A stretch of DNA of 33,753 nt, taken from NCBI GenBank assembly GCA_024103275.1, contig JAGFIV010000079.1:1-33753 (forward strand). The letters are read 5' to 3'. This DNA is from Flavobacteriales bacterium. Its GTDB lineage: Bacteria; Bacteroidota; Bacteroidia; Flavobacteriales_F; PHOS-HE28. This document shows positions 1,378 through 33,753 of this stretch, piece by piece (position 1 is the first letter of the stretch; every line of letters begins with the position of its first letter). A model generated the notes under the pieces. That model was not told the origin of the DNA, did not search any database, and saw nothing but the letters and a program-made list of their open reading frames with translations. A program made the position numbers and the translations under genes.

Positions 1378-2487
1378 ATGATGATGGAACGATCGGAAGC
1401 GATCTCTTGGAGGGTGGTGGCCGCCGGCCTGGCACTTTTCCTGTTCACCGGCATGCAGGCGCAGGACGCGCCGAAATACAGCAACGAGTTCCTGTCCATC
1501 GGGGTGGGGGCGCGTTCGCTGGGCATGGGCTATTCCCATGTGGCCGCCACCAACGACGTGACCGCCGGCTACTGGAACCCGGCCGGCCTGCTGGGCGTGC
1601 GCGGCGACCTGCAGGTAGGGGCCATGCACAGCGAGTATTTCGCCGGCATCGCCAAGTACGATTACCTCGCCGTGGCCAAACCCATCGATTCGGTCAGCAC
1701 CATCGGCGTGTCGTACCTCCGCTTCGGCGTGGACAACATCCCCAACACCACCGAGCTGATCGACAACAACGGCAACCTCGACTACGACCGCATCACCAGC
1801 TTTTCCGCCACGGACAATGCCTTCCTGGTGAGCTATGCGCGCAAGCTGAAGGTGCCGGGGCTCCGCTTGGGCGCCAATGCGAAGGTGGTGTACCGCAATG
1901 TGGGTCCTTTCGCCAAGGCCTGGGGCTTCGGCCTGGATGCGGGCCTGCAGTACGACCGGGGGGCGTGGCACTTGGCGGCCATGGGGCGCGACATCACCGG
2001 CACCTTCAACGCCTGGACCTACTCCCTGGATGAGCGCACCAAGGACGTGTTCGTGCGCACCGGCAACGAGCTGCCCGTGAACGGCGTGGAGGTGACCCTG
2101 CCGCGCCTGGTGCTGGGCGTGGCCAGGGGCTTCAAGCTGGGCGGCAAGGTGGACCTGCTCGCCGAACTGGACCTGGAGAACACCTTCGACGGCCAGCGGA
2201 ATACCTTGGTGGCCACCAGCGCGTGGAGCGGCGACCCGCGACTGGGCATCGAGGTGGGGTATGCCCAGGTCGTCTTCCTCCGGGCCGGGGTGAACAACAT
2301 GCAGTACATCACCGACATCAACGACAAGCGGACGTTGAACGTGCAGCCCAACATCGGGCTGGGCCTGAAGATCAAGAGCGTGGCCCTGGATTACGCGCTT
2401 ACCAATATCGGCGAGGGCAACGGTGCGCTGATCTCCAATGTCTTCTCCCTGCGCTTCGACCTGTTCAAGCATAGTTCCGATTCATGA
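1378..2487 (+). CDS. PorV/PorQ-family outer-membrane protein (T9SS-associated)
   Basis: A 369-residue outer-membrane beta-barrel protein of the PorV/PorQ family. In the type IX secretion system, PorV-type barrels shuttle cargo to the cell-surface sortase PorU. The mature start carries the family's N-terminal pattern: YSNEFLSIGVGARSLGMG, then the segment ATNDVTAGYWNPAGL, followed by many alternating barrel strands. A signal peptide is visible (hydrophobic GLALFLFTGMQAQ). Three ATG codons follow one another at 1378, 1381 and 1384; an upstream TTG at 1354 is possible but unnecessary. The gene overlaps the PorU-like gene by ATGA, which supports a matched PorV/PorU pair. It may be a paralogue rather than the main PorV. 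Confidence 0.82.
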   Translation: MMMERSEAISWRVVAAGLALFLFTGMQAQDAPKYSNEFLSIGVGARSLGMGYSHVAATNDVTAGYWNPAGLLGVRGDLQVGAMHSEYFAGIAKYDYLAVAKPIDSVSTIGVSYLRFGVDNIPNTTELIDNNGNLDYDRITSFSATDNAFLVSYARKLKVPGLRLGANAKVVYRNVGPFAKAWGFGLDAGLQYDRGAWHLAAMGRDITGTFNAWTYSLDERTKDVFVRTGNELPVNGVEVTLPRLVLGVARGFKLGGKVDLLAELDLENTFDGQRNTLVATSAWSGDPRLGIEVGYAQVVFLRAGVNNMQYITDINDKRTLNVQPNIGLGLKIKSVALDYALTNIGEGNGALISNVFSLRFDLFKHSSDS

Positions 2488-5400
2488 AACGCCTGCTGCC
2501 CGTTGCCTTTATCGCCGGCCTATGCCTTCAACTGGCGGCCCAGCCATTCGGCAACGAGTGGATCCGTTACGACCAGCAGTATTGGGCCTTCAAGGTTTGG
2601 GCGGAAGGGGCGCGGCGCATCGATTCCACCGCCTTGGCGGATGCCGGCCTCCCCTTGGCCTCCATCGATCCGCGCGGGTTCCAGCTGTATGCCCGCGGCC
2701 GGCAGGTGCCCATTTATGTGAAGGGGGAACAGGACGGCCAGTTCAACAGCGGTGACTTCATCGAGTTCTACGCCTTCAAGAATGATGGTTGGCTCGACAG
2801 CACCTTGTGGGATGACCCCGCCCACATCAACAACCCGTATTATTCCCTCTACAACGACACCATCCGTTATTACCTCACGTGGGGCTCCTCGTCCGGTGCC
2901 TTGCGCATGGACACGATCTCCAGTTCCAATTGGGCCGCCAGGCAGCCCTTGCCTTGGTGCTGGGGCACTACCCTGGTCCAGGATGCGAACATCTACCAGG
3001 GCGGGATCTCGTCCTACAACGGTGCCATGTTGTGTACCATCAATGAGGGGGAAGGCTATTTCAGCGGCCAGCCCTTGTCCACCACGGGGGGCGATGCGGT
3101 GAAGACCTATACATTGAACCTGCCCGGATTGAACACCACTGCCGGACTGCCGCCGCTGACCTACAGGTCCGTGTGGGCCGGCCTGCTCAATCCGGGGTTC
3201 GCCACCTGCCCGGACCATCACTTGGTGCTCTCCCATGCGGGCACCACGTATATGGACACCATCTTCCAGGGGCGGCGGTTGTTGAAGCTGGAATTTGAGT
3301 TCCCTCTTTCCAGCGTGGGCGGGGCCAGCACCGTGGTGAACTACACCGCCGTGCATGACCTGGTGTGCAATGGCCTCCCGCCGGACTATCACGATGCCAC
3401 GGCCCTGGCCTGGCACAGCATCCGGTATCCCAGGGATTTTGCCTTTGTCAATGGCACGGTGGCCGAGTTGCCCGCGCAAGCAGGCACCGACAGCCTGCGG
3501 ATGGACTTTTCGCTGGCCAATGACGCCATCATACATGCCTGGACCCCCGGAGGAAGCTTGGTGCGGTGCAAGCCCGTACTGGAACTCGGGGGCCTCCATG
3601 CCGTGCTGCCCCCCGCCGCAACGGACATGCGGATGGCGGTGACCCGGGTGCCCCTGATGGCCCCCGTGACCGCGGCCCAGCTGCTACCGGTAACGCCCAC
3701 GGGGTACTTCACCGACCCTGCCGGGAACCTGCCCGATTCCGCCTTGGTCATCGTCACCCATACCACGCTGATGGATGCCGCGCAGCAGTATGCGCTTTAC
3801 CGGCAGACCAATCCGAACAACCGCTACAACACCATCGTGGCGGACGTAGAGGATTTGTACCACCAGTTCGGGGGCGGGGTGCGGCTGCACCCGATGGCCA
3901 TCCGCAACTTCATCCGGTATGTATACAGCCAGGCTCCCTCCAGGCCCCAGGGCCTGTTCCTGGTGGGCAAGAGCGTGAAGGCACCGGCCACGGGAGGATT
4001 GAGCTATCAGCGCGGCTACCGTAGGGATGCGCTTGCCGCGGCGGCCTGCCTCGTTCCCACCATGGGGTGGCCCAATTCCGACATGAGCTTCGGGCTCAAC
4101 CTCACCGGCACCCAGCCTGCCTACCTCTCGGTACCCGTGGGCCGCCTGGCGGCGCGCACCCCCGATGATGTGTTGCACTACCTGGCCAAGGTGGATTCCG
4201 TGGAAAGCCAGCCGCCCGCCGCATGGATGAAGAACATCCTGCACTTCCGAGGCGGATTCACGGACCTGGAGCGGACCATGTTCGACAATGCCTTGCACAG
4301 CTTCCAGGTCGTGGCCGAGGACACCTCCTTCTTCGGCCATGTGACCCGCTTCGTCAAGAACGGTCCCGACATCATTGAGCAGGCCGCCTTGGACAGCGTG
4401 ACCGACATGGTGGCGAACGGGGTGACCCTGATGACCTTCTTCGCCCATGCCTATGGCGGCGGGTTCGACATCACCATCGACTCGCCCAGCAACTACAACT
4501 GGCACGGCAAGTTCCCCACCATTTTCGGCAACTCGTGCTACACCGGCAACCTGCACCTGTACGATGCCGCCAGCACCAGTGAACAGTTCGTGCTCCATGA
4601 GAACGCCGGGGCCGTGGCCTTCATCTCCTCCAGCGATATCGGGCTTTCCACGCTGCTCGCCCAGTATTGCCGCGATTTCTACAAGAGCTTCAGCCAGGTG
4701 AATTACGGGAAGAGCATCGGGCAGCACATGCGCTTTGCAAGCTTCAACCAGTTGGGCACCGGCACCATCGATGCGGTGAACAGCGCGGAGACCATCCACC
4801 TGCACGGCGACCCCACCCTGGTCATGAACTCGCCCAAGCTGCCCGACCTGGAGGTGACCCAGGCCGACGTGCTGACCATCCCCCAGCAGGTCACGGCCGA
4901 CCTGGATTCCTTCCGCCTGCAAGTGATCTTCCGCAACATCGGAAGGGGTACCCACCAATCCTTCAGCGTGGCCGTGGACCGGCGGCTGGTGGACTTGGGC
5001 GTGGACCTGCCCACCGTGACCCGGCAGGTGCAAATGGGGTCATTCCAGGATACCGTGGTCTTCACGCTTCCGACCCAGGTGGCCGCGGGCGGAGTGGGCA
5101 TCAATGACTTGCAGGTGAGGCTGGACTTGGACCCCGACTTGATCCAGGAGCTGGACGAAACGGGCAACAACCAGGTGACCATGCGGATCAATATCAGGCC
5201 CGGGGACCTGCTGCCGGTGCATCCCTACAATTTCGCCATCACACCGGACCATGCACCCATCCTGAAGGCCAGCACCGGCGACCCCTTTGCGCCGCCCCGC
5301 CGGTACATCTTCCAGATCGATACCACGGACCTGTACAACAGCCCGATCATGGAGCAACACGTGGTGGAAGCGCCGGGCGGGGTGGTGGAGTGGGCTCCTT

Positions 5401-7577
5401 CGTCCATCTATGCGATCAACTTCAACCGGGACAGCGTGGTCTTCTTTTGGCGCTGCTCCCTGGACAGCGCAGGGCAGGGTGATTACAACTGGCATGAGTT
5501 CTCCTTCCAGCACATCACCGGCAAGACCGGATGGGGGCAATCGCATTTCTTCCAGTTCAAGGACAATGCGTTCAATTTGTTGAACTATGATCGCCCGGGC
5601 CGCCGCATTGATTATTTCGGCGGCAACCACCAGATCGCCTGCGTGGTACGGGGCGGTTCATACAACCAAGTGTATTGGACCAAAGACCTTGAGATGCAGG
5701 AAGGCAACGGATGCGGTGCAACACCGTACATGAACGTGGCCGTGGTGGACCCCTTCGACTTCTCAACCTGGGAAACGGGTTATGGGGGCTCGGGCCATTA
5801 CTACGGCGAGTTCAACGCGGGGTCGGCATGCGTGGACAGGCCGAAAAAGAACTTCGCCTTCCGTTTCGTGTATGCCAACCAGCCGGACGTGGCCCAGATG
5901 GATACGATGGCCTATATGTTGAGCAACGTCATTCCCAACGGCCATTATGTGCTGGTGTACTCCTATGTGCGCCTGTTGCGCAACTCCCTGCTGGCCTCCA
6001 ATGCCATGAATGCGATGGCCGCCTTGGGCGCGGTGAACTTGGCCAACGGCACGGTGCCGGATAGTGTGCCGTACATATTCTTCTGCAAGAAAGGCGACCC
6101 CTCCTCGGTACAAGAGGTATGGGGCGACACGCCGGAGGCATTGATCGAGATGAATGCCTCCATGACGCTTAGCAGCCGGAGCGGTTCATTGCAGGCCCCG
6201 CGCAGCAATCCGGCATTGGGCTGGCAGGGGCTTAGCTGGCAGATATCACCGAGGCAGGCCAACGACAGCACCCGGATACAACTGGCGGGCGTGTCCCAGG
6301 GATTCGAGACCGCGCTGCTGGACCTGGAGGGGCTGACGGGGGACGTGGACCTGCTTCCCATCGTGGATCCCGACCAATTCAGCCAGCTCAGGCTGAAGGG
6401 GTCCTTCTGGAACGACACCGTGGAAACCCCGTTGCCTGCCCAGTTGAAGCGGTGGCAGCTGTTGGGCGTTCCCGCGCCCGAGTGCGCGATCGACCCACCG
6501 TCCGGGTTCCTGTTCCACATGGACAGCCTGTTCCAGGGGCAGGATGGCCAGGTGATGGTGGCCGTGCGGAACATCGGCCAGGTACACATGGACAGCCTGC
6601 TGATGACCGCGTGGGTCACCGACCGGAACAACCAGGTACACCGTGTGCATTACAAGTACAACCCGCCCCTGCCCGAAGGGGCCGTCCTGAGGGATACCAT
6701 CACCATCAACACGCAGCAGTATCCCGGCCCCAATTCCATCCTCATCGAGGCCAATCCCATCGATACCCTCACCGGTGAATACGACCAGCGCGAACAATAC
6801 CATTTCAACAACATCGCCGAACTGCGCTTCCTCACCCTGCAGGACCTGGAAAACCCCATGCTGGACATCACCTTCGACGGCATCCACATCCTGGACGGGG
6901 ATATCGTAAGCGCCGAGCCGGAGATCCTGATCCGACTGGAAGACGAAAACCAGACCCTGCTGCTGGACCAGCCCGGCGACACGGCCTACTTCAAGGTCTT
7001 CCTGACGGACCCTTCCGGTGCAAACAGGCGCATCTACTTCCGGGAAGGGACGCGGGAAGTGCTGCAGTTCATCCCCGCCAGCGGGCCGGAAAACGTCAGC
7101 CAGGTGATCTACAGGCCCAAGTTCACCGTGGACGGCAAGTACCGCATCAGCGTGCGGGCCACGGACAAGAGCCGCAACAACAGCGGGGACCGCGACAACA
7201 GCGCGAATTTCGAGGTGATCACACGCCCCACCATCACCGAGGTGCTCAACTACCCCAACCCCTTTACCACCAGCACCCGCTTCGTATTCACCGTCACCGG
7301 GCGTGAACCCCCGACGGCCATGCGCATCCAGGTGATGACCATCACCGGAAGGGTGGTGCGCGAGATCTCCGCCGCCGAACTGGGGCCCTTGCACGTGGGC
7401 CGCAACATCACCCAATTTGCCTGGGACGGCACCGACCAGTTCGGCGACCGCCTGGCACGCGGGGTATACCTGTACCGGGTGACCGCCCAGCTGCACGGCC
7501 AGGACATCGAATACCGGGACGGCGGCGCCGGCGCCTACTTCACCAAGGGAGTGGGCAAGATGTTCCTGCTACATTGA
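2484..7577 (+). CDS. PorU2-like C25-family sortase/peptidase with FlgD-like C-terminal domain
   Basis: A 1697-residue secreted protein resembling the putative type IX sortase PorU2. The N-terminal signal peptide is followed by a PorU-like region, with YARGRQVPIYVKGEQDGQF and the GDFIEFYAF stretch. A gingipain-type C25 peptidase domain covers roughly residues 400-780. The likely catalytic pair is His655 (FFAHAYGGG) and Cys685 (FGNSCYTGN), and HLHGDPTLVM closes the domain. A CARDB-like domain (around residues 790-900) and other beta-rich domains follow. The last 100 residues hold NYPNPF and WDGTDQFGDRLARGVYLYR, a FlgD-like/T9SS C-terminal fold. By analogy with PorU it would cleave the sorting domain of secreted proteins and attach them to the surface. 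The protein is larger than PorU itself. It starts in an ATGA overlap with the PorV-like gene. Confidence 0.85.
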   Translation: MKRLLPVAFIAGLCLQLAAQPFGNEWIRYDQQYWAFKVWAEGARRIDSTALADAGLPLASIDPRGFQLYARGRQVPIYVKGEQDGQFNSGDFIEFYAFKNDGWLDSTLWDDPAHINNPYYSLYNDTIRYYLTWGSSSGALRMDTISSSNWAARQPLPWCWGTTLVQDANIYQGGISSYNGAMLCTINEGEGYFSGQPLSTTGGDAVKTYTLNLPGLNTTAGLPPLTYRSVWAGLLNPGFATCPDHHLVLSHAGTTYMDTIFQGRRLLKLEFEFPLSSVGGASTVVNYTAVHDLVCNGLPPDYHDATALAWHSIRYPRDFAFVNGTVAELPAQAGTDSLRMDFSLANDAIIHAWTPGGSLVRCKPVLELGGLHAVLPPAATDMRMAVTRVPLMAPVTAAQLLPVTPTGYFTDPAGNLPDSALVIVTHTTLMDAAQQYALYRQTNPNNRYNTIVADVEDLYHQFGGGVRLHPMAIRNFIRYVYSQAPSRPQGLFLVGKSVKAPATGGLSYQRGYRRDALAAAACLVPTMGWPNSDMSFGLNLTGTQPAYLSVPVGRLAARTPDDVLHYLAKVDSVESQPPAAWMKNILHFRGGFTDLERTMFDNALHSFQVVAEDTSFFGHVTRFVKNGPDIIEQAALDSVTDMVANGVTLMTFFAHAYGGGFDITIDSPSNYNWHGKFPTIFGNSCYTGNLHLYDAASTSEQFVLHENAGAVAFISSSDIGLSTLLAQYCRDFYKSFSQVNYGKSIGQHMRFASFNQLGTGTIDAVNSAETIHLHGDPTLVMNSPKLPDLEVTQADVLTIPQQVTADLDSFRLQVIFRNIGRGTHQSFSVAVDRRLVDLGVDLPTVTRQVQMGSFQDTVVFTLPTQVAAGGVGINDLQVRLDLDPDLIQELDETGNNQVTMRINIRPGDLLPVHPYNFAITPDHAPILKASTGDPFAPPRRYIFQIDTTDLYNSPIMEQHVVEAPGGVVEWAPSSIYAINFNRDSVVFFWRCSLDSAGQGDYNWHEFSFQHITGKTGWGQSHFFQFKDNAFNLLNYDRPGRRIDYFGGNHQIACVVRGGSYNQVYWTKDLEMQEGNGCGATPYMNVAVVDPFDFSTWETGYGGSGHYYGEFNAGSACVDRPKKNFAFRFVYANQPDVAQMDTMAYMLSNVIPNGHYVLVYSYVRLLRNSLLASNAMNAMAALGAVNLANGTVPDSVPYIFFCKKGDPSSVQEVWGDTPEALIEMNASMTLSSRSGSLQAPRSNPALGWQGLSWQISPRQANDSTRIQLAGVSQGFETALLDLEGLTGDVDLLPIVDPDQFSQLRLKGSFWNDTVETPLPAQLKRWQLLGVPAPECAIDPPSGFLFHMDSLFQGQDGQVMVAVRNIGQVHMDSLLMTAWVTDRNNQVHRVHYKYNPPLPEGAVLRDTITINTQQYPGPNSILIEANPIDTLTGEYDQREQYHFNNIAELRFLTLQDLENPMLDITFDGIHILDGDIVSAEPEILIRLEDENQTLLLDQPGDTAYFKVFLTDPSGANRRIYFREGTREVLQFIPASGPENVSQVIYRPKFTVDGKYRISVRATDKSRNNSGDRDNSANFEVITRPTITEVLNYPNPFTTSTRFVFTVTGREPPTAMRIQVMTITGRVVREISAAELGPLHVGRNITQFAWDGTDQFGDRLARGVYLYRVTAQLHGQDIEYRDGGAGAYFTKGVGKMFLLH

Positions 7578-20365: not shown

Positions 20366-23740
<3,375 letters not shown>

Positions 23741-27063: not shown

Positions 27064-27138
27064 GGGACGTTAGCTCAGTTGGTTCAGAGCGCATGCTTCA
27101 CACGCATGAGGTCACTGGTTCGAATCCAGTACGTCCCA
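27064..27138 (+). tRNA. tRNA-Val (anticodon CAC)
   Basis: A full cloverleaf of 75 nt: acceptor GGGACGT/ACGTCCC, D stem GCTC/GAGC, anticodon stem CATGC/GCATG with loop TTCACAC (CAC at 27099-27101), T stem ACTGG/CCAGT with loop TTCGAAT, discriminator A. CCA is not encoded. It reads GUG codons. It stands at the left edge of the integrative element but does not match the tRNA fragment at the element's right end. Confidence 0.96.
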
Positions 27139-27151
27139 CACCTTACAGCAG

Positions 27152-27187
27152 CAAGCCCTTCAGCGAAAGTTGAGGGGCTTGTTTTTT
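27152..27187 (+). terminator. Rho-independent terminator after tRNA-Val
   Basis: CAAGCCCTTCA and TGAGGGGCTTG pair over 11 bp with one T:G wobble, loop GCGAAAGT, followed by TTTTTT. Its first half also belongs to a 22-nt segment that recurs (19 identities) next to the tRNA-Thr fragment at 33674-33695. Confidence 0.9.
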
Positions 27188-27267
27188 AGGGCCAGTTTCA
27201 ACAAGGTGTAAACTTTTCGCGATTTGAGCATGAAGGCCGAGGTGGGATGAAGCCGCCGGGTGCCACC

Positions 27268-27489
27268 CTACGCCCTCTCGAAGATATGCCCCAACCCCCG
27301 AAGCTCTTCCAGCACGAACTCCACAACAAGGGGGGCCAGTAGGTGACGGACGTTATCCGGTGGTAAGGCTTCCAACTCCCTGCCCATCTTCAGCAGGGCG
27401 GCGCATAACTGCCAACGCTTAGTGAAGGTCGCAACGGGGCCGCGCCCATCCGCTGCGGTGGCCTTGGCCTCAGCCTTCGCCGCGCTCAT
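27268..27489 (-). CDS. Small protein of the element, unknown function
   Basis: A 73-residue alanine-rich protein, MSAAKAEAKATAADG at the start, then two helical stretches (KRWQLCAALLKMGRELEAL and HLLAPLVVEFVLEELRGLG). No family is recognised. It starts within the end of the DUF5681 gene (20-bp overlap) and is the last gene of the leftward operon, close to the left edge of the element. The tight overlap is the main argument that it is real. Confidence 0.5.
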   Translation of the reverse strand: MSAAKAEAKATAADGRGPVATFTKRWQLCAALLKMGRELEALPPDNVRHLLAPLVVEFVLEELRGLGHIFERA

Positions 27490-27832
27490 GGCCGGGGGTA
27501 ATCATCTTTCCACCCCGCCGAAAGGTGATCGTGTGTTTCACCACGGCATCCGCTTCGGCCTTCACCTCCTGCCTGCTCAACTTAGGTAGGGCGAACTCGG
27601 CCAAGGCCGCATAGACCTGCAACGCTCCCTTGGGATCGTCCTTGCCCAGCCGCCGGATCCACTTCACAACGTCCGGGGCCGTTTCGTCAAGGGCTGCGTG
27701 GATGGTTTCCCGGATGCGCTCGTTGATCTTGTTCGGGGTGCCCTTGGGCCTGCCTTTGGGGTTGCCGCTGGCTCCCTTGGGGAACTGCCCTGCTTTGGTC
27801 CTGTTCTTTACAGGCTTCAAGTCCTGGTTCAT
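27470..27832 (-). CDS. DUF5681 domain protein
   Basis: A 120-residue basic protein with the DUF5681 hallmark near its start: KAGQFPKGASGNPKGRPKGTPNK. A helical part follows (RETIHAALDETAPDVVKWIRRLGKDDPKGALQVYAALAEFALPKL) and then a basic tail. DUF5681 proteins are often encoded beside terminase genes in phages and sometimes in other mobile elements. A DNA-packaging or DNA-binding role is therefore plausible but not shown. The start overlaps the stop of the DUF6371 gene (ATGA). Confidence 0.78.
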   Translation of the reverse strand: MNQDLKPVKNRTKAGQFPKGASGNPKGRPKGTPNKINERIRETIHAALDETAPDVVKWIRRLGKDDPKGALQVYAALAEFALPKLSRQEVKAEADAVVKHTITFRRGGKMITPGHERGEG

Positions 27833-28962
27833 GTCGTTGTCAATTTGCGGACGGTGGCCCCTGCAACGTCCAGTTGCAGCAGGTCCACCAATAGGTTGAT
27901 CGCGGGGTTCTTTGCCGCCATGCGCTCAATGGCCACCTCGGCGCGTGACTTTACGATGGGCGGTGCCGATGGGGTCAGCGGCGGTGGTGGTGCCGGTGCT
28001 GCCATGGCCCCGACCTCGGCGGGGTGCTGCTCACTCAACAGCAGGTCGGCAATGTCCATCCCGGCCAGTGTGCGCTCCATGGTGGCCCCGGCTTCCAAGA
28101 TGTCGCTCACATGGATCGACGCGAACAAGTGCCTCAGCTCAATGGCCCGTTGCTTCCAAAGGAAGTAGGCGGCACAGTTGGGGGCAAGGTCGGGGAAGGC
28201 CAGCACCTTCCGGCCCGTCAAGGCTTGGAGCTTGGCCAGCTTGAACTCTCCCAACGATCCGGTGGCCAGCCAACGGTAGTTGGGCAGCAGGGCGGCGCAG
28301 ATCAGTGCCGTTTTCTCGCTCTCCACCACGGCCACGGGCTTATCCATCGGCCAATCTTTCAGCAGGTGTTCACCGAACAGGCACTGCTCCAACTTCCGGC
28401 CCTCCGGTATGCCGCCGGTAAGCGAATGCACCCACGTGGTACCGCCCTCCTTGCTGCGGTGCCCGGTGGCCGGATCGTACAGCATGACCTTGCCGCCCTT
28501 CACCTTGCCGTCAACGTCCACCTGCCAGTAAACCGCAGCCCCGGCCATGCGTCCATCAGGCCATGTTCCCAGCGCGTAGTCAAGGGCCACCTTGTCCCAA
28601 CGGTCCGATCCGATCAGGTTCCGCCAGTATGCGCTCAGGGTGTTCTGCTCAGGGTGGGCGCGTAGGGCTTTCACCACGTCGCGATCATGCAGGAAGGGGA
28701 CGGGCGGCGGCGGCTCAGGCTTCGGGGTGTAGGCGGTGCCGTTGTCGGGCTTCAGGCCGTTGTCCCGGAAGTAGTCGCGGGGCGGGTAGTGATAGCCGCA
28801 GCGGTCCGCCCGGTTGCACTTCCCCACATGGTCGGGCAGCACCTCCCCGGTGGTGGTGTCCACGTACTTGGTGAACTCCTTTCGGTGTCCGCAGCCGGGG
28901 CAGGTGTGCCGGGTTGACGGTCCCCGGTACGGCTCCAGGGTGAAGCGTTGGGGGGCGCTCAT
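27829..28962 (-). CDS. DUF6371 primase-like protein (zinc ribbon and TOPRIM-like)
   Basis: A 377-residue protein typical of Bacteroidota mobile elements. The N-terminus has a zinc-binding pattern with Cys21, Cys24, Cys49 and Cys55, like the CHC2 finger of DnaG-type primases. Around residue 210, VAVVESEKTALICAALLP resembles the TOPRIM glutamate motif, and KVLAFPDLAPN resembles its acidic DxD-type strand, though only one Asp is seen. It may prime replication of the excised element together with the DUF3987 protein. The C-terminal 60 residues are Pro/Ala-rich. ATG 28962 overlaps the stop of the small gene upstream; the iteron-like array lies just beyond. Confidence 0.8.
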   Translation of the reverse strand: MSAPQRFTLEPYRGPSTRHTCPGCGHRKEFTKYVDTTTGEVLPDHVGKCNRADRCGYHYPPRDYFRDNGLKPDNGTAYTPKPEPPPPVPFLHDRDVVKALRAHPEQNTLSAYWRNLIGSDRWDKVALDYALGTWPDGRMAGAAVYWQVDVDGKVKGGKVMLYDPATGHRSKEGGTTWVHSLTGGIPEGRKLEQCLFGEHLLKDWPMDKPVAVVESEKTALICAALLPNYRWLATGSLGEFKLAKLQALTGRKVLAFPDLAPNCAAYFLWKQRAIELRHLFASIHVSDILEAGATMERTLAGMDIADLLLSEQHPAEVGAMAAPAPPPPLTPSAPPIVKSRAEVAIERMAAKNPAINLLVDLLQLDVAGATVRKLTTT

Positions 28963-29186
28963 GTTTTGGAGGGATATTCCCCCGTGTCACTTTTGGCACT
29001 TTGGCACTTTGCTACGGGGACGCGGGTTGCAGCGCGTTTTCGGGTGGCACAAACTTTGGCACTTTGGCACTTTGCCCACATGGGCGGGCAGGGTTTGTGC
29101 CACGTTGTGCCAGCAAAGTGCCAGCCCTTTTTGGGCCTCAAACCCGCGTCAATGCTGGGAAGTGTCAAAAAGGACAGTTGTGCCAT
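28959..29186 (-). CDS. Possible 75-residue protein encoded across the iteron-like array
   Basis: A frame from ATG 29186, four bases after the DUF3987 stop codon, to a TGA that overlaps the DUF6371 ATG (ATGA). The position is what an operon gene would have. The product is basic with two copies of AKCQSAK, a direct result of the DNA repeats, and has no recognised family. The 8-bp repeat period is not a multiple of three, which argues that the DNA, not the protein, is under selection. It may be an accidental open frame. Confidence 0.3.
   Translation of the reverse strand: MAQLSFLTLPSIDAGLRPKKGWHFAGTTWHKPCPPMWAKCQSAKVCATRKRAATRVPVAKCQSAKSDTGEYPSKT
28991..29185. repeat. Iteron-like array: nine TGGCAC motifs, five forward then four reverse
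   Basis: Forward TGGCAC starts at 28994, 29002, 29045, 29057 and 29065; reverse GTGCCA starts at 29097, 29107, 29118 and 29180. Two exact copies of a 20-bp block, itself 2.5 units of TTTGGCAC, sit at 28992-29011 and 29055-29074. The arrangement as a whole is an inverted array within the gap between the DUF3987 and DUF6371 genes. Such arrays are typical of replication origins (iterons) or of operators for a replication protein. Confidence 0.7.
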
Positions 29187-29190
29187 GGGG

Positions 29191-30633
29191 TCAATGCTCG
29201 AATTGCTTCCTGTACCGCCCTTGGCCGTCCCTTGCAAGGAGGGGTTGGCGGCCCTTGCTCCACTCGTTCAACCGCCGTTTCATGGTCCGCGCGGAAAGCC
29301 CCATGCCGTCCGCTTTAACGATTGCCTCAGCCGTGGTGAACTCACCGGGCAGGGTATCGTACAGGTCCAGCTTGTCGCCTTCCAACCGGTCCAAGGGGGA
29401 GGCTTGGAACATGGTGAAGTGCATCTTCCGCGCCGTGCGCTCGAAGTAGTCCAGCAGCTTTTGGGCACCCTCCACGGCTTCGGTGCGCACCTCTCCACCT
29501 GCTTGTTGACCGTCGCAGGCACGGTGCAGCAGTTCCAGCACAAGGGCCAGCCGGTGGTGGTATGTGTCCAGCTTGCCAAGGAGCGCGGCGGTCAGTTCGT
29601 CCCCGGCTTCGATCGCGGCGTTCTTCCGGTCCGTGTGCCTCCGGTCCCACGTGGCGTACATGGCCGCAGCCTGTTCCGTGTACCGCAGCACCACGGGTTG
29701 GGGATCGCCGCCGTTGAGGTCCATTTCCAGCCCCAGCAGGTAGTCCACCACCTGCTTCCACCACTGGATCCACTCTGCCGGTAGCTCCGTGGTGGTGGCG
29801 TATTCCGCGCGTTGTACGTCCGGCCACAACACCAGCAGACGGTGGAGAAAGCCATCGTCGGCACCGGCAAGCGCTGCCAGCTTCCCGGTTTGGATCCCAC
29901 CGGCCAAGGCAACGAATGGGCGCGGCACCAAATGTTCACCGGCGGTCTTTCGGATCTCAGTGATGGGTTGGCCGTTGAAGATCGACAGCCACTTGGGGCG
30001 GTCCCCTCCGCTGCGGTATGCGTCCATGCTTTGGAGGAAGCCCAGGAACTCATCGTTATGCCGTCCAAGCCCGCGCGGTGTTGCCGACAACTTCGCGATC
30101 AATGCCTCCATGGTAACATCCCCGACAACGTGCGGCCTCCATACCGGGCGCGGTGCGGGCGGCTCATCGGTTGGTGCGTTCTTGTCCCGCTTCTTGCCCT
30201 TGCGCTCTTCTTGCGCGGCCTCCCATTCCCTCACCTTGTGATCGTGTTCGGACTTGGTGCGGCGGTCGTGATCGGTCAGGGGCCGGGTCAGCAGGTCCAC
30301 CGGGGGGCTTTTGCCCACGGACGGGGCACCAACGGCCAGCAGCCACAGTGCGGCGGATGCCGTGTAGGGGCCGCAGCATAGGGCGGTGCTATTGCCGATC
30401 GCGGTGGAGGCGGTGAACAGCAGCCCGGCGGCGGAATAGTCCACGGGGAACCGGGCTTTTTGCCGTAGGACTTCCAGCAGGTCGGCAACTGGCTTAGGGA
30501 AGGCATCCACGGGGAACGGCCCGGCCTTGGGCCGATCGTCTTCCGCAGGCTTGGGTTCAAGGTGCAGGGCTTCGGCCTCAATGTCCGCGATCAGGTCGGC
30601 GTTCACGGACGCGGGTAGTGCTATCTTTGGCAT
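29191..30633 (-). CDS. DUF3987 protein (helicase/primase-like ATPase of mobile elements)
   Basis: A 480-residue protein. Its plan fits DUF3987: FPVDAFPKPVADLLEVLRQK, then a Walker A-like GAPSVGKS at about residues 102-109 (Lys108), a charged insert (about 125-160), RHNDEFLGFLQSMDAYRSGG and PFVALAGGIQTGKLAALAG. Family members accompany primases in Bacteroidota islands and are thought to act as replicative helicase-like ATPases. The C-terminal 60 residues (MGLSARTMKRRLNEW) resemble a winged helix and might bind the adjacent repeats. Start at 30633 (MPKIALPASV) matches the beginning of family sequence; the longer frame upstream overlaps the HTH gene. Confidence 0.8.
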   Translation of the reverse strand: MPKIALPASVNADLIADIEAEALHLEPKPAEDDRPKAGPFPVDAFPKPVADLLEVLRQKARFPVDYSAAGLLFTASTAIGNSTALCCGPYTASAALWLLAVGAPSVGKSPPVDLLTRPLTDHDRRTKSEHDHKVREWEAAQEERKGKKRDKNAPTDEPPAPRPVWRPHVVGDVTMEALIAKLSATPRGLGRHNDEFLGFLQSMDAYRSGGDRPKWLSIFNGQPITEIRKTAGEHLVPRPFVALAGGIQTGKLAALAGADDGFLHRLLVLWPDVQRAEYATTTELPAEWIQWWKQVVDYLLGLEMDLNGGDPQPVVLRYTEQAAAMYATWDRRHTDRKNAAIEAGDELTAALLGKLDTYHHRLALVLELLHRACDGQQAGGEVRTEAVEGAQKLLDYFERTARKMHFTMFQASPLDRLEGDKLDLYDTLPGEFTTAEAIVKADGMGLSARTMKRRLNEWSKGRQPLLARDGQGRYRKQFEH

Positions 30634-30676
30634 GGCAAAGGAATTTTGAGCGGGTATGCGGTAAGGCGCTGCCCGC

Positions 30677-30982
30677 TCACTTGTTTCCGGCCATGCGTTC
30701 CTCGGCGACCTCGGAGGCCATGGGTCGGCGCCCCCCGTCGATCCAAGCATCCAAAAGATCCAAGTCAAAGAACAAGCGCCCACCAACCTTACTGTGCGGC
30801 ACTTCCCGGCGATGCGTTTTCTTGTACATCGTCCGGTTAGCCAATCCGCAGTATTTGGCAGCTTCCGAAAGTCCGACCCGGCGTTTCCGATCGGGTTTCT
30901 CATTCGTGCGGCTCTTCAGTGCTCGCACATCCACGGCCAAGGCATCCAGCTTGGCGGTGATCTCCTCGAAAGGGTTGTTCAT
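30677..30982 (-). CDS. Excisionase-like helix-turn-helix protein
   Basis: A 101-residue protein. An N-terminal coiled coil (NNPFEEITAKLDALAVDVRAL) precedes a MerR/HTH_17-type DNA-binding domain: RVGLSEAAKYCGLANRTMYKK, then a wing RREVPHSKVGGRLFFDLDLLDAWI. This is the usual excisionase/regulator gene of Bacteroidota integrative elements. It could direct excision with the integrase or control the replication genes downstream. A 30-bp concentric palindrome lies about 60 bases upstream of its ATG and is a candidate binding site. Confidence 0.85.
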   Translation of the reverse strand: MNNPFEEITAKLDALAVDVRALKSRTNEKPDRKRRVGLSEAAKYCGLANRTMYKKTHRREVPHSKVGGRLFFDLDLLDAWIDGGRRPMASEVAEERMAGNK

Positions 30983-31044
30983 CTTGCGCTTGCCGTGGCG
31001 TTGGTGCCAAACGACTGCGCAAAAATTCCGCCCTGCTTTTCCGG

Positions 31045-31074
31045 GTCGCCGGTAAGTCGCGACTTTGTGGCGAC
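31045..31074. promoter_or_regulatory. Concentric palindrome upstream of the HTH gene
   Basis: The 12-bp palindrome AAGTCGCGACTT (31054-31065) is nested exactly inside outer arms GTCGCC (31045-31050) and GGCGAC (31069-31074) with 3-nt spacers on both sides. All share one centre at 31059.5. GTCGC thus occurs four times in dyad order. It lies in the 103-bp gap between the HTH gene and the 353-residue gene. Operator or excisionase site is the likely role. Confidence 0.55.
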
Positions 31075-31085
31075 AATTCTTCCTA

Positions 31086-32147
31086 CTAGTGCTCCCTGCT
31101 TTGCACAAGCTCCCTTTCCTCCGTCGCCAACTTCAATGCATCCGACCCTTTTTCAAGCCGTGGGATGACGGCATCGTAACGCTTCAACACTTCGGTGGAC
31201 CGCACTCCTGTGCCGGTGCGTCCGGCTTCATTGCGATATGTAATGAAATGTGAACGCAATCTTTTACCACTCCCTTTGCTTACGAATCCCGCATCCCTTG
31301 CGACTTTATCGGCTTCGGTGTTCGTGGATAGATTGGCTTGCCGGTCGCCTGCTGCATACCGTAAGGCATGGAACAGGGCCAAGGTCTTCAGGTCATCCCA
31401 TTCCTTCGCGGGCTTGGGCTTGGTGGTTGTGGTGGTTGCAACAACAGCACCCACACGCTCCACCAAGCGGACCCTCCATGTGTTGAAGCCTTCGATATGC
31501 CTTTGGAACATGGCCGCAATATCTCCGGGTGCGGCGTACTGGCCCCTATTCGACAGGTCTTGCCTTGCCCGTTCCAGCCGCGCCTCGTATGCCGTGCGCT
31601 CGGCGTTGCCGATGGATAGCTGGGCAATGCCGGAAGCCAAACGCCCGACCTCCTTCGCGGCTTGTTCGCCTTGGCCATGTGCGACAAACGCGGCCCGGAC
31701 TTCCTCAGCAAAGCCTTCGGCCCAACGCTCCCACCGTTGCGTCAAAGGGCCGGACTTCGCGCCGAGGTTCGTCAATGTCAACCCGTAATGCGGTGATCCA
31801 CCAGCGTGGTACCACTGGCCGGAAAGTTCACGGCGTTGGTTGCCCAAGGTACTCATGTAGTCATTCAATTCCGGGCGATAGCCTTGCAGCCTGCGATACT
31901 GTTTCCGGCGATACTCTTCGACCTCAGCGGCGCTATCAATGAGGAACGAAAGAAGGCAGTAATGGGCTTCGTGTTTCAGTTGCTCGAAGGCACCCGCAAC
32001 GGTCCGGCCTTGCCAAATGGTTGAAGCAGGAGGGAGTACTTGGGGTAACGGAGGCAATCCCATGTCGCCGCGTATGTCATTCACAAGGCCGCGCATTGCC
32101 TCGGCAGCATCCTTCATTTTGCCCTTCCTTGGTTGTTTCGCCATCAT
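31086..32147 (-). CDS. Element protein of 353 residues, unknown function
   Basis: No family is recognised with certainty. Residues 1-110 contain a segment rich in Tyr/Arg (EYRRKQYRRLQGYRPELNDY). Residues 120-240 are largely helical with several Arg/Glu pairs. A TTTTTKPKPAKEWDD linker leads to a C-terminal domain of about 100 residues: LKTLALFHALRYAAGD, then GFVSKGSGKRLRSHFITYRN and KRYDAVIPRLEKGSDALKL. That last pattern recurs in proteins encoded beside integrases in Bacteroidota islands. Its place between integrase and excisionase suggests a role in control or recombination. It starts right after the relic integrase tail (TGA, then ATGATG). Confidence 0.6.
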   Translation of the reverse strand: MMAKQPRKGKMKDAAEAMRGLVNDIRGDMGLPPLPQVLPPASTIWQGRTVAGAFEQLKHEAHYCLLSFLIDSAAEVEEYRRKQYRRLQGYRPELNDYMSTLGNQRRELSGQWYHAGGSPHYGLTLTNLGAKSGPLTQRWERWAEGFAEEVRAAFVAHGQGEQAAKEVGRLASGIAQLSIGNAERTAYEARLERARQDLSNRGQYAAPGDIAAMFQRHIEGFNTWRVRLVERVGAVVATTTTTKPKPAKEWDDLKTLALFHALRYAAGDRQANLSTNTEADKVARDAGFVSKGSGKRLRSHFITYRNEAGRTGTGVRSTEVLKRYDAVIPRLEKGSDALKLATEERELVQSREH

Positions 32148-32216
32148 TCAAAGCCCTTGGTTTGCCGCGTCCAGTTCCTCGTTGCTGAAGCTCTTCAGGT
32201 AGGCATGGCCCATGCG
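32148..32216 (-). pseudogene. Relic C-terminal tail of a second tyrosine integrase
   Basis: Directly after the integrase stop codon another frame reads RMGHAYLKSFSNEELDAAN and ends QGL before TGA. Its last 18 codons match the end of the intact integrase (AYLKRFGNNVLDVADQLL) in 11 positions, including the catalytic tyrosine. The MGH box is joined straight to AYLK, with the usual spacer between them missing. This is best read as the scar of an older integrase gene. Confidence 0.7.
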
Positions 32217-32217
32217 C

Positions 32218-33480
32218 TTACAGCAGTTGATCGGCAACATCCAGCACGTTGTTCCCGAAACGCTTCAGGTAGGCGGCGGTGGTGTTCACGTTCTCATGCC
32301 CCATGCTCTCCGAAATGATCGCCACGTCCACGCCCCTCCGCTTCAGGGTGGTGGCGTAGGTGTGCCGGGCCACGTAGAAGGTGAGGGAACCTTTGATGCC
32401 AAGTGCCTTGGCCACGGCCTTCAGGTCGCGGTTCACGTGTTGGAGCCGGTCCTTTATGCGCGTCCATACCTCAGCCTCCGTGCCCTCGTTCCCTTTCAGG
32501 ACCGGGAACAGGTAGCGGCTCTCCCGGTCGTTGAAGTAGTCCATGATCTCCTGCATGGGGGCACTTACCGGAATGCTGAAGTTGGCCCCCTCTCCCTTGC
32601 GCTTGGTCTTGGTTCGGGTGTATTCCAAGCGTCCGTTGATGACGGAGCCGTGGGTGAGGCGGGCGATGTCCGCGAAGTTGATGCCCCGTGCATAGTAGCT
32701 GAAGAGGAACAGGCGGACGGTGCAGCCCAGCAGGGGGTGTTCACCATAGGGGAAGGCTTTGAGGCGTTCAATGTCCCCATCCTCCAAGGCGCGTGGCCGT
32801 GTGGTGGCCTTCAGCCGCTTCATGGAGTAGCCTTTGTGCCGGGCCGTTTCAAAGGGATATTGTTCCTGTGCCAGCAGGCCGTCCTTTATCGCTTGGTTCA
32901 CCGCAACGCGGATGATCCGGTAGTAGGTGGCTATGCCGCCGGGGGTGCAGCCCTCACGGCGGAGGAAGGCTTCCACCTCTTCCAGCTTCCGGGGTGTCAG
33001 GTCGTGGAAGGGCAGGGGCTTGCCCGCATTGGCGCGGCGTAATGCGCTCACCGCGTTGCGGAACATGATCGCATAGCCGGGGCGGTCGTTGCGTAGTTCC
33101 TGCTCCGTGGCCTCCATGTAGGCCAGCACGTCCGACGTGGCCTTGGGGTTGCGGTACATTTTCTCGAAGGCTTCCAGCGACAGGGAATTGTTCACCACCA
33201 GCGCGTCAACGATCCCGCACACGCGGGCCTCAATACCGTTGACGATCCCGTTGATTAAGGTGCCACCGCGCACACGTGCCTTCACGCGGGCTTGGGCCTC
33301 ATCCCATTGCTCCGGCTTCACGGCCTCTTTGAGGGAGTACCGCTTCACCTTGCGGCGGTGGGACAGTTGCAGGCATATCGGTGCCATGCCGTTCTTCATT
33401 CGCTGGCTTGTCAGCAGGATGAAGCGGGCGTTGAAGCCATCTTCCTTGGCCCGCCTGTTCAGGGGTATGTTTTCGCCCAT
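32218..33480 (-). CDS. Tyrosine-type site-specific integrase
   Basis: A 420-residue recombinase that would insert and excise the element at a tRNA gene. The N-terminal arm-binding domain (FNARFILLTSQRMKNGMAPI) is followed by a core-binding SAM-like domain (residues about 105-205) and the catalytic domain. Visible active-site residues: Arg265 (YYARGINFADI), Arg372 and His373 (YVARHTYAT, with Tyr369 where many relatives have His, a common variant in Bacteroidota integrases), GH in MGHENVNTT, and nucleophile Tyr404 (AAYLKRF). ATG 33480 was chosen because an upstream TTG (33519) falls in the -33 promoter element. The gene sits at the element's right end facing inward, next to the tRNA fragment. 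Confidence 0.93.
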   Translation of the reverse strand: MGENIPLNRRAKEDGFNARFILLTSQRMKNGMAPICLQLSHRRKVKRYSLKEAVKPEQWDEAQARVKARVRGGTLINGIVNGIEARVCGIVDALVVNNSLSLEAFEKMYRNPKATSDVLAYMEATEQELRNDRPGYAIMFRNAVSALRRANAGKPLPFHDLTPRKLEEVEAFLRREGCTPGGIATYYRIIRVAVNQAIKDGLLAQEQYPFETARHKGYSMKRLKATTRPRALEDGDIERLKAFPYGEHPLLGCTVRLFLFSYYARGINFADIARLTHGSVINGRLEYTRTKTKRKGEGANFSIPVSAPMQEIMDYFNDRESRYLFPVLKGNEGTEAEVWTRIKDRLQHVNRDLKAVAKALGIKGSLTFYVARHTYATTLKRRGVDVAIISESMGHENVNTTAAYLKRFGNNVLDVADQLL

Positions 33481-33487
33481 CTTGGGG

Positions 33488-33519
33488 CAAACGTAAGCAA
33501 AACGTAAACACTTTGGCAA
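33488..33519 (-). promoter_or_regulatory. Integrase promoter (TTG-N21-TACGTTTG)
   Basis: On the minus strand TTG (33517-33519) is followed after 21 nt by TACGTTTG (33488-33495), a full match to the Bacteroidota TAnnTTTG box with near-normal spacing. The box ends seven bases before the ATG, so the mRNA is nearly leaderless. Confidence 0.6.
33489..33507. repeat. Two direct AAACGTAA repeats, 11 bp apart, in the integrase promoter
   Basis: AAACGTAA occurs at 33489-33496 and 33500-33507, one helical turn apart and overlapping the promoter box. They could be arm-type sites or an operator used by the integrase or HTH protein on its own promoter. Confidence 0.45.
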
Positions 33520-33625
33520 GATGGAGGAAAAAGGGGGCTAACCGGTTTTCCTTGCTGGGCTTATGTTTGCCAGCGTCAAGCAAGGGAAAAGGCCACTTTT
33601 GGAAGCCCCGGAAAAGGCCGAAATA

Positions 33626-33672
33626 ACTCATTCGTAATGAGCAGGTCGTCAGTTCAAATCTGACAGGAGGCT
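33626..33672 (+). other. Attachment-site scar: 3' half of tRNA-Thr (anticodon CGT)
   Basis: From the anticodon arm onward the sequence is a good tRNA: stem CTCA/TGAG with loop TTCGTAA (CGT at 33633-33635), variable loop, T stem GTCAG/CTGAC with loop TTCAAAT, acceptor 3' strand AGGAGGC and discriminator T. The 5' half (acceptor, D arm) is absent; the sequence upstream belongs to the element. This is the standard right-end (attR-like) signature of integration into a tRNA gene. Confidence 0.8.
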
Positions 33673-33685
33673 CCCTTAGAGCCGC

Positions 33686-33721
33686 AAGCCCTCCAAGCGT
33701 TTTGGGGGGCTTCGCTTTTTT
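33686..33721 (+). terminator. Rho-independent terminator of the interrupted tRNA-Thr gene
   Basis: AAGCCCTCCAA and TTGGGGGGCTT pair over 11 bp with one wobble, loop GCGTT, then CGC and a run of seven T. It was the terminator of the original tRNA-Thr gene. The 32 bases that follow to the window end show nothing. Confidence 0.85.
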
Positions 33722-33753
33722 GGGGGTCGGATGCCTTACCGTTCTGGCGATGC

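Follow-up and report, generated by a model that had tools for sequence, protein, structure and literature searches.

How does an element come to lie between an intact tRNA gene and the displaced half of a different one? The locus that raises this question is at the right-hand end of the window, the 33,753-nucleotide stretch of Flavobacteriales DNA analysed here, which is the entire contig C101 of a draft genome of 137 contigs and ends with that contig at position 33753. The only intact tRNA in the window, tRNA-Val(CAC), was placed at 27064–27139 on the forward strand by ARAGORN and Rfam. To its left, the window appears chromosomal, with genes such as those for a TilS-like protein and an ECF sigma factor; a 1697-aa protein with a peptidase C25 domain is encoded in this part at 2484–7577. 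A first-pass annotation had described half of a tRNA-Thr(CGT) gene at the right end. This half is real: positions 33627–33672, on the forward strand, are the displaced 3′ part of tRNA-Thr(CGT) and form a Thr-type attR, identical to positions 23524–23569 of contig C78 in the same assembly. The fragment indeed has no cognate tRNA to its left, where the intact, non-cognate tRNA-Val(CAC) is the sole tRNA. The intact tRNA-Thr(CGT) that had been predicted elsewhere in the genome was located at C78:23498–23573, and further tRNA-Thr genes, with TGT and GGT anticodons, both lie on C108.

Identity between the fragment and C78 extends 81 bases beyond the tRNA into the terminator, to 127 bases in total. 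The last 127 bases of the window (33627–33753) are thereby identical to the end of C78 and also to the start of a further contig, C125; positions 33673–33753 (forward strand), the host sequence downstream of tRNA-Thr, are the terminator part of this contig overlap. An exact identity of 127 bases rules out a chance match. The broader idea that the fragment resembles a tRNA by chance, or is an old pseudogene with no link to integration, has a negligible probability, given this identity, the neighbouring integrase and the same arrangement in two related genomes, G002 and G006. C125 is part of the chromosome and shares synteny with the DNA flanking the G002 island. Housekeeping genes, named from reading translations, are found on both contigs (EF-G-like on C78; ClpC-like and GyrA on C125). 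In another relative, G004, the counterparts of C78 and C125 are neighbours, separated by the tRNA-Thr region and the sequence shared by the C78 end and the C125 start. Because these counterparts adjoin around the shared sequence, the path from C78 to C125 appears to be an empty tRNA-Thr site. Separately, C125:12950–15023, a tail of 2.1 kb, deviates in composition and encodes an RhlE-type helicase; the best matches of this helicase in a plasmid collection are proteobacterial (68% to Eleftheria). The tail may reflect a mis-join, horizontal transfer or contamination.

The left end of the element has its closest counterpart in the genome G050. There, on contig C171, the same tRNA-Val(CAC), a Val-type attL, is followed by sequence identical to 27148–27420 of the window, an exact match of 273 bp to the left end of a Val-type island. 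On the basis of this match, we delimited a Val-type left-end cassette at 27140–27420, consisting of a terminator, an arm-like repeat and part of a short open reading frame (ORF). The repeat, read in the window at 27195–27213, is GTTTCAACAAGGTGTAAAC. A second G050 contig carries a body 92% identical to window positions 28124–32377, followed by a different integrase, and beyond this Val-type integrase lie the same GTTTCAACAAGGTGTAAAC string, standing beside it at the right end of the island, then a tRNA-Val fragment and folC. The two G050 contigs presumably represent one island. The gene folC also adjoins tRNA-Val in G002 and G022. A relative in which tRNA-Val is followed directly by tRNA-Thr, the arrangement that the first-pass annotation had named as contradicting its reading, was not seen; in the relatives, tRNA-Val adjoins folC. 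The window thus has tRNA-Val(CAC) and the left-end cassette with its arm-like repeat, as in the Val-type family, and at its right end neither a Val-type integrase nor a tRNA-Val fragment.

In the genome under study, C59 opens with tRNA-like pieces in tandem, followed by folC, and no displaced tRNA-Val half was found at this locus or elsewhere in the assembly. The array (C59:1–200) consists of tandem tRNA-Val-like 3′ pieces with altered anticodon stems and a period of ~108 bp; a tRNA-like piece related to it sits between tRNA-Val(CAC) and tRNA-Val(TAC) in G002. The latter gene, the neighbour of tRNA-Val(CAC) in relatives, was not found anywhere in the assembly under study, and DNA adjoining the junction of tRNA-Val and the element is therefore probably missing from it.

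The right end of the element matches islands of another type. The G002 element shows 95–98% DNA identity to window positions 27978–33726, with a gap near 31011–31403, and ends in the same tRNA-Thr fragment, followed by a homologue of the C125 flank. In G006, a near-identical tRNA-Thr(CGT) fragment stands beside the integrase, but the host flank is a different one. On the other side of both islands, an intact tRNA-Thr(CGT) is followed by a left end with repeats like TTCGTAAACGATCCGTAAAC, and this Thr-type left end joins sequence homologous to the window from 27468 onward. Neither G002 nor G006 has the Val-type cassette sequence in its Thr-type left end. The two ends of each of these islands lie on separate contigs, and we infer that each pair bounds a single island. 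At its right end, the window has the Thr-type integrase and the tRNA-Thr(CGT) fragment, as in this family; the intact tRNA-Thr(CGT) and the Thr-type left end are absent and a Val-type left end occupies their place. In the assembly to which the window belongs, the body occurs once; a Val-type integrase, a tRNA-Val fragment and a Thr-type left end like that of G002 were not found in it.

The Thr-type tyrosine integrase of the window is encoded at 32218–33483 on the reverse strand. Its three domains (Arm-DNA-bind_5, Phage_int_SAM_5 and Phage_integrase) all exceed the Pfam cut-offs, and it has the same domains as the Bacteroidota tyrosine integrases with Arm-DNA-bind_5 and SAM_5. The arm-like repeats next to it, AACGTAAGCAAAACGTAAAC, were read at 33490–33509 and are near-identical at the right end of the G002 island. 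The protein is 98–100% identical to the integrases of G002 and G006, which adjoin tRNA-Thr fragments (about 99.5–100% for G006; 99.5% over 420 aa), and 45% identical to the Val-type integrase of G050. A scan of GTDB returned only the G006 and G002 contigs, both from metagenome-assembled Flavobacteriales, and a scan of IMG/VR a sole integrase relative, 26% identical. We compared the targets of ten integrases of the genus, the window's included. Those of G050, G052 and G020 stand beside tRNA-Val fragments, and those of G002, G006, G013, G040 and the window beside tRNA-Thr fragments; the G042 and G045 integrases (~49% identical to that of the window) have neither fragment nearby. The integrase tree unites the window with G002 and G006 at 100/100 and G050 with G052 at 100/100, while the deeper split between Val and Thr is weakly supported, so that the separation of all Val-associated from all Thr-associated integrases is not firm. 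Judged from the adjoining tRNA fragments alone, the clade would have site preferences. In the G013 island, the anticodon loop of the intact tRNA-Thr on the left (TTCGTAC; tRNA at L114:1429–1501) and that of the displaced fragment on the right (TTCGTAA) are one base apart, which would place strand exchange at or 5′ of the anticodon.

A Thr-type integrase of relaxed specificity could in principle have put its island into tRNA-Val. The Val- and Thr-associated integrases do form one family (45–58% identity), within which site choice has changed. However, insertion into tRNA-Val should leave a tRNA-Val fragment on the right, where the window has a tRNA-Thr fragment with its downstream host DNA, and the left end is of Val type, as in G050, rather than of Thr type. 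We consider such an event very improbable; as an insertion of a Thr-type island at tRNA-Val it was rejected, the right flank being host DNA downstream of tRNA-Thr.

Between the two ends lies the body, encoded on the reverse strand. A 73-aa ORF without a family match in Pfam or PHROG (27268–27489) is followed by a DUF5681 protein (27470–27832; PF18932), a module common to islands at several tRNAs. Next are a DUF6371/zinc-ribbon protein (27829–28962; PF19898, PF21957), which is putatively primase-like, a DUF3987 helicase-like protein (29191–30633; PF13148; PHROG 2373, DNA helicase), an HTH_17 excisionase-like protein (30677–31108; PF12728; PHROG 66, excisionase and transcriptional regulator) and a 353-aa ORF, again without a family match in Pfam or PHROG (31086–32147). 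No conjugation or mobilization gene was recognized in the island: Pfam and PHROG gave no relaxase match, two ORFs being without a family match. PADLOC, run on the six ORFs other than the integrase, returned no defence gene. A second copy of the body was not found elsewhere in the genome, and only the 0.3-kb DUF5681 module recurs, with 91% DNA identity, in islands at tRNA-Glu (C21) and tRNA-Asp (C57). These are two more related islands, C21:1–5156 and C57:1–4009, adjoining tRNA-Glu(TTC) and tRNA-Asp(GTC), respectively. Their contigs begin with a common stretch that falls in the integrase genes, and 112 bases of this stretch also form the end of C3.

The contig therefore combines a Val-type left end with a Thr-type right end on a shared body. 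Exact identity to the Val-type island of G050 runs for 1353 bp (29272–30624) and 495 bp (31708–32202), and that to the Thr-type island of G002 for up to 428 bp. Along the body, the sequence switches several times between resembling G050 and resembling G002/G006, forming a patchwork. The first-pass annotation had offered three origins for the mismatch: recombination between two islands, rearrangement of the chromosome after insertion, or two loci joined in assembly. The ends do come from two island types; a true recombinant and a mis-join are not separated by this finding.

What bears on that choice is the behaviour of the assembly. C21 and C57 have a prefix of exactly 127 bases in common; as this second pair of contigs shares the same length as the window, C78 and C125, we took 127 bases to be the k-mer overlap of the assembly and the shared stretch to be a vertex of its graph. 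In one and the same assembly, a given piece of host DNA thus directly adjoins the tRNA-Thr site in one path and an island end in another. Together, the empty and occupied junctions point to mixed templates. The probable loss of DNA beside the tRNA-Val junction, tRNA-Val(TAC) included, likewise speaks for a mis-join. We give slightly better than even chances to a mis-join, made by the assembler from two islands in a mixed short-read sample, as the cause of the hybrid contig. The left end (tRNA-Val, terminator and arm-like repeat, up to ~27420) is that of a Val-type island, and the right end (integrase, arm-like repeats and tRNA-Thr fragment) that of a Thr-type island, for which the tRNA-Thr gene between C78 and C125 is the normal site. 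Body segments common to both types can be identical for >1 kb, which exceeds the 127-base k-mer, and a short-read assembly of a mixed population could have collapsed the shared body, retaining one left and one right end. The contig would then break where the paths through the empty tRNA-Thr site (C78 to C125) and through the occupied one converge, in the 127-base vertex. That the assembler rather than the cell made the join, and that the sample was mixed, is our inference; the assembler and the type of sample were likewise deduced from the contig overlaps. If the join is a mis-join, the tRNA anomaly is no biological puzzle, since each parent island keeps the usual rule.

Some features of the contigs count against a mis-join. 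The assembler did not resolve a repeat of 142 bp that links other islands (C3 to C21/C57), and the contigs therefore look like plain unitigs. C101, by contrast, is unbroken from tRNA-Val to the tRNA-Thr fragment, so that a competing branch must have been absent or pruned at both ends. Had two complete islands simply been mixed, the Thr-type left end and the Val-type right end should not both have disappeared. These observations favour the main alternative, to which we assign somewhat less than an even chance: a true hybrid, in which homologous recombination between a Val-type and a Thr-type island through the shared body produced mismatched ends and, by inversion, translocation or tandem duplication, joined the tRNA-Val locus to DNA downstream of tRNA-Thr. 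A real junction would fit a contig that runs on without a break, given that other island repeats, no more than 127–142 bp long, did interrupt the assembly, and would fit the finding of neither reciprocal end in the assembly. The several switches in the patchwork body also speak for it, as they indicate that these islands recombine naturally. Such a hybrid should not be excisable by its own integrase, because no Thr-type left end remains. Against it stands the empty tRNA-Thr site in the same assembly: C125 would have to follow both C78 and the hybrid, which requires a mixed population or a duplication of C125. Furthermore, we did not find in the assembly a Thr-type left end at tRNA-Thr, the expected reciprocal product, and mismatched ends occur in none of the relatives seen. 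On balance, we regard a mis-join as slightly more likely than a true recombinant. It is doubtful, in our view, that a natural recombinant island with mismatched ends records a recent event between the tRNA-Val and tRNA-Thr loci, either a chromosomal rearrangement or a tandem duplication, and that both chromosome forms are present in one population.

The mismatched tRNA pair is thus largely explained by other contigs and by relatives, and illustrates that a contig of a draft genome can display a tRNA paradox that these mostly resolve. When an intact tRNA and a displaced fragment do not match, contig ends and parent islands should be checked first. The comparison also brings out small islands of one family in uncultured Flavobacteriales: their bodies are identical in places from one species to another, but they have different integrases, arm-like repeats and target tRNAs. 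A true hybrid would clearly exemplify how two islands can provide the homology for large-scale changes of the chromosome.

Among the titles and abstracts returned by literature searches for hybrid islands and chimeric contigs, none described a closely matching case; besides the Bacteroidota integrases mentioned above, two known systems offer the nearest comparison. Under the Islander rule, an island in a tRNA gene is bounded by the regenerated target on one side and by that target's own fragment on the other (PMC4383910). As in such islands, C101 has a tyrosine integrase inside the element, an intact tRNA on the left and a displaced 3′ fragment on the right, both in forward orientation, and the fragment starts in the anticodon region. 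C101 differs in that the fragment is non-cognate to the intact tRNA and the ends do not match, whereas the parent islands of the relatives obey the rule, to the extent that this can be judged from ends on separate contigs. Related ICEs and IMEs have been documented to exchange integration modules (reviewed in PMC5704250), and the islands described here likewise have near-identical bodies with different integrase and attachment modules and different target genes. In C101, however, only the right end is of Thr type, leaving an island with mismatched ends.
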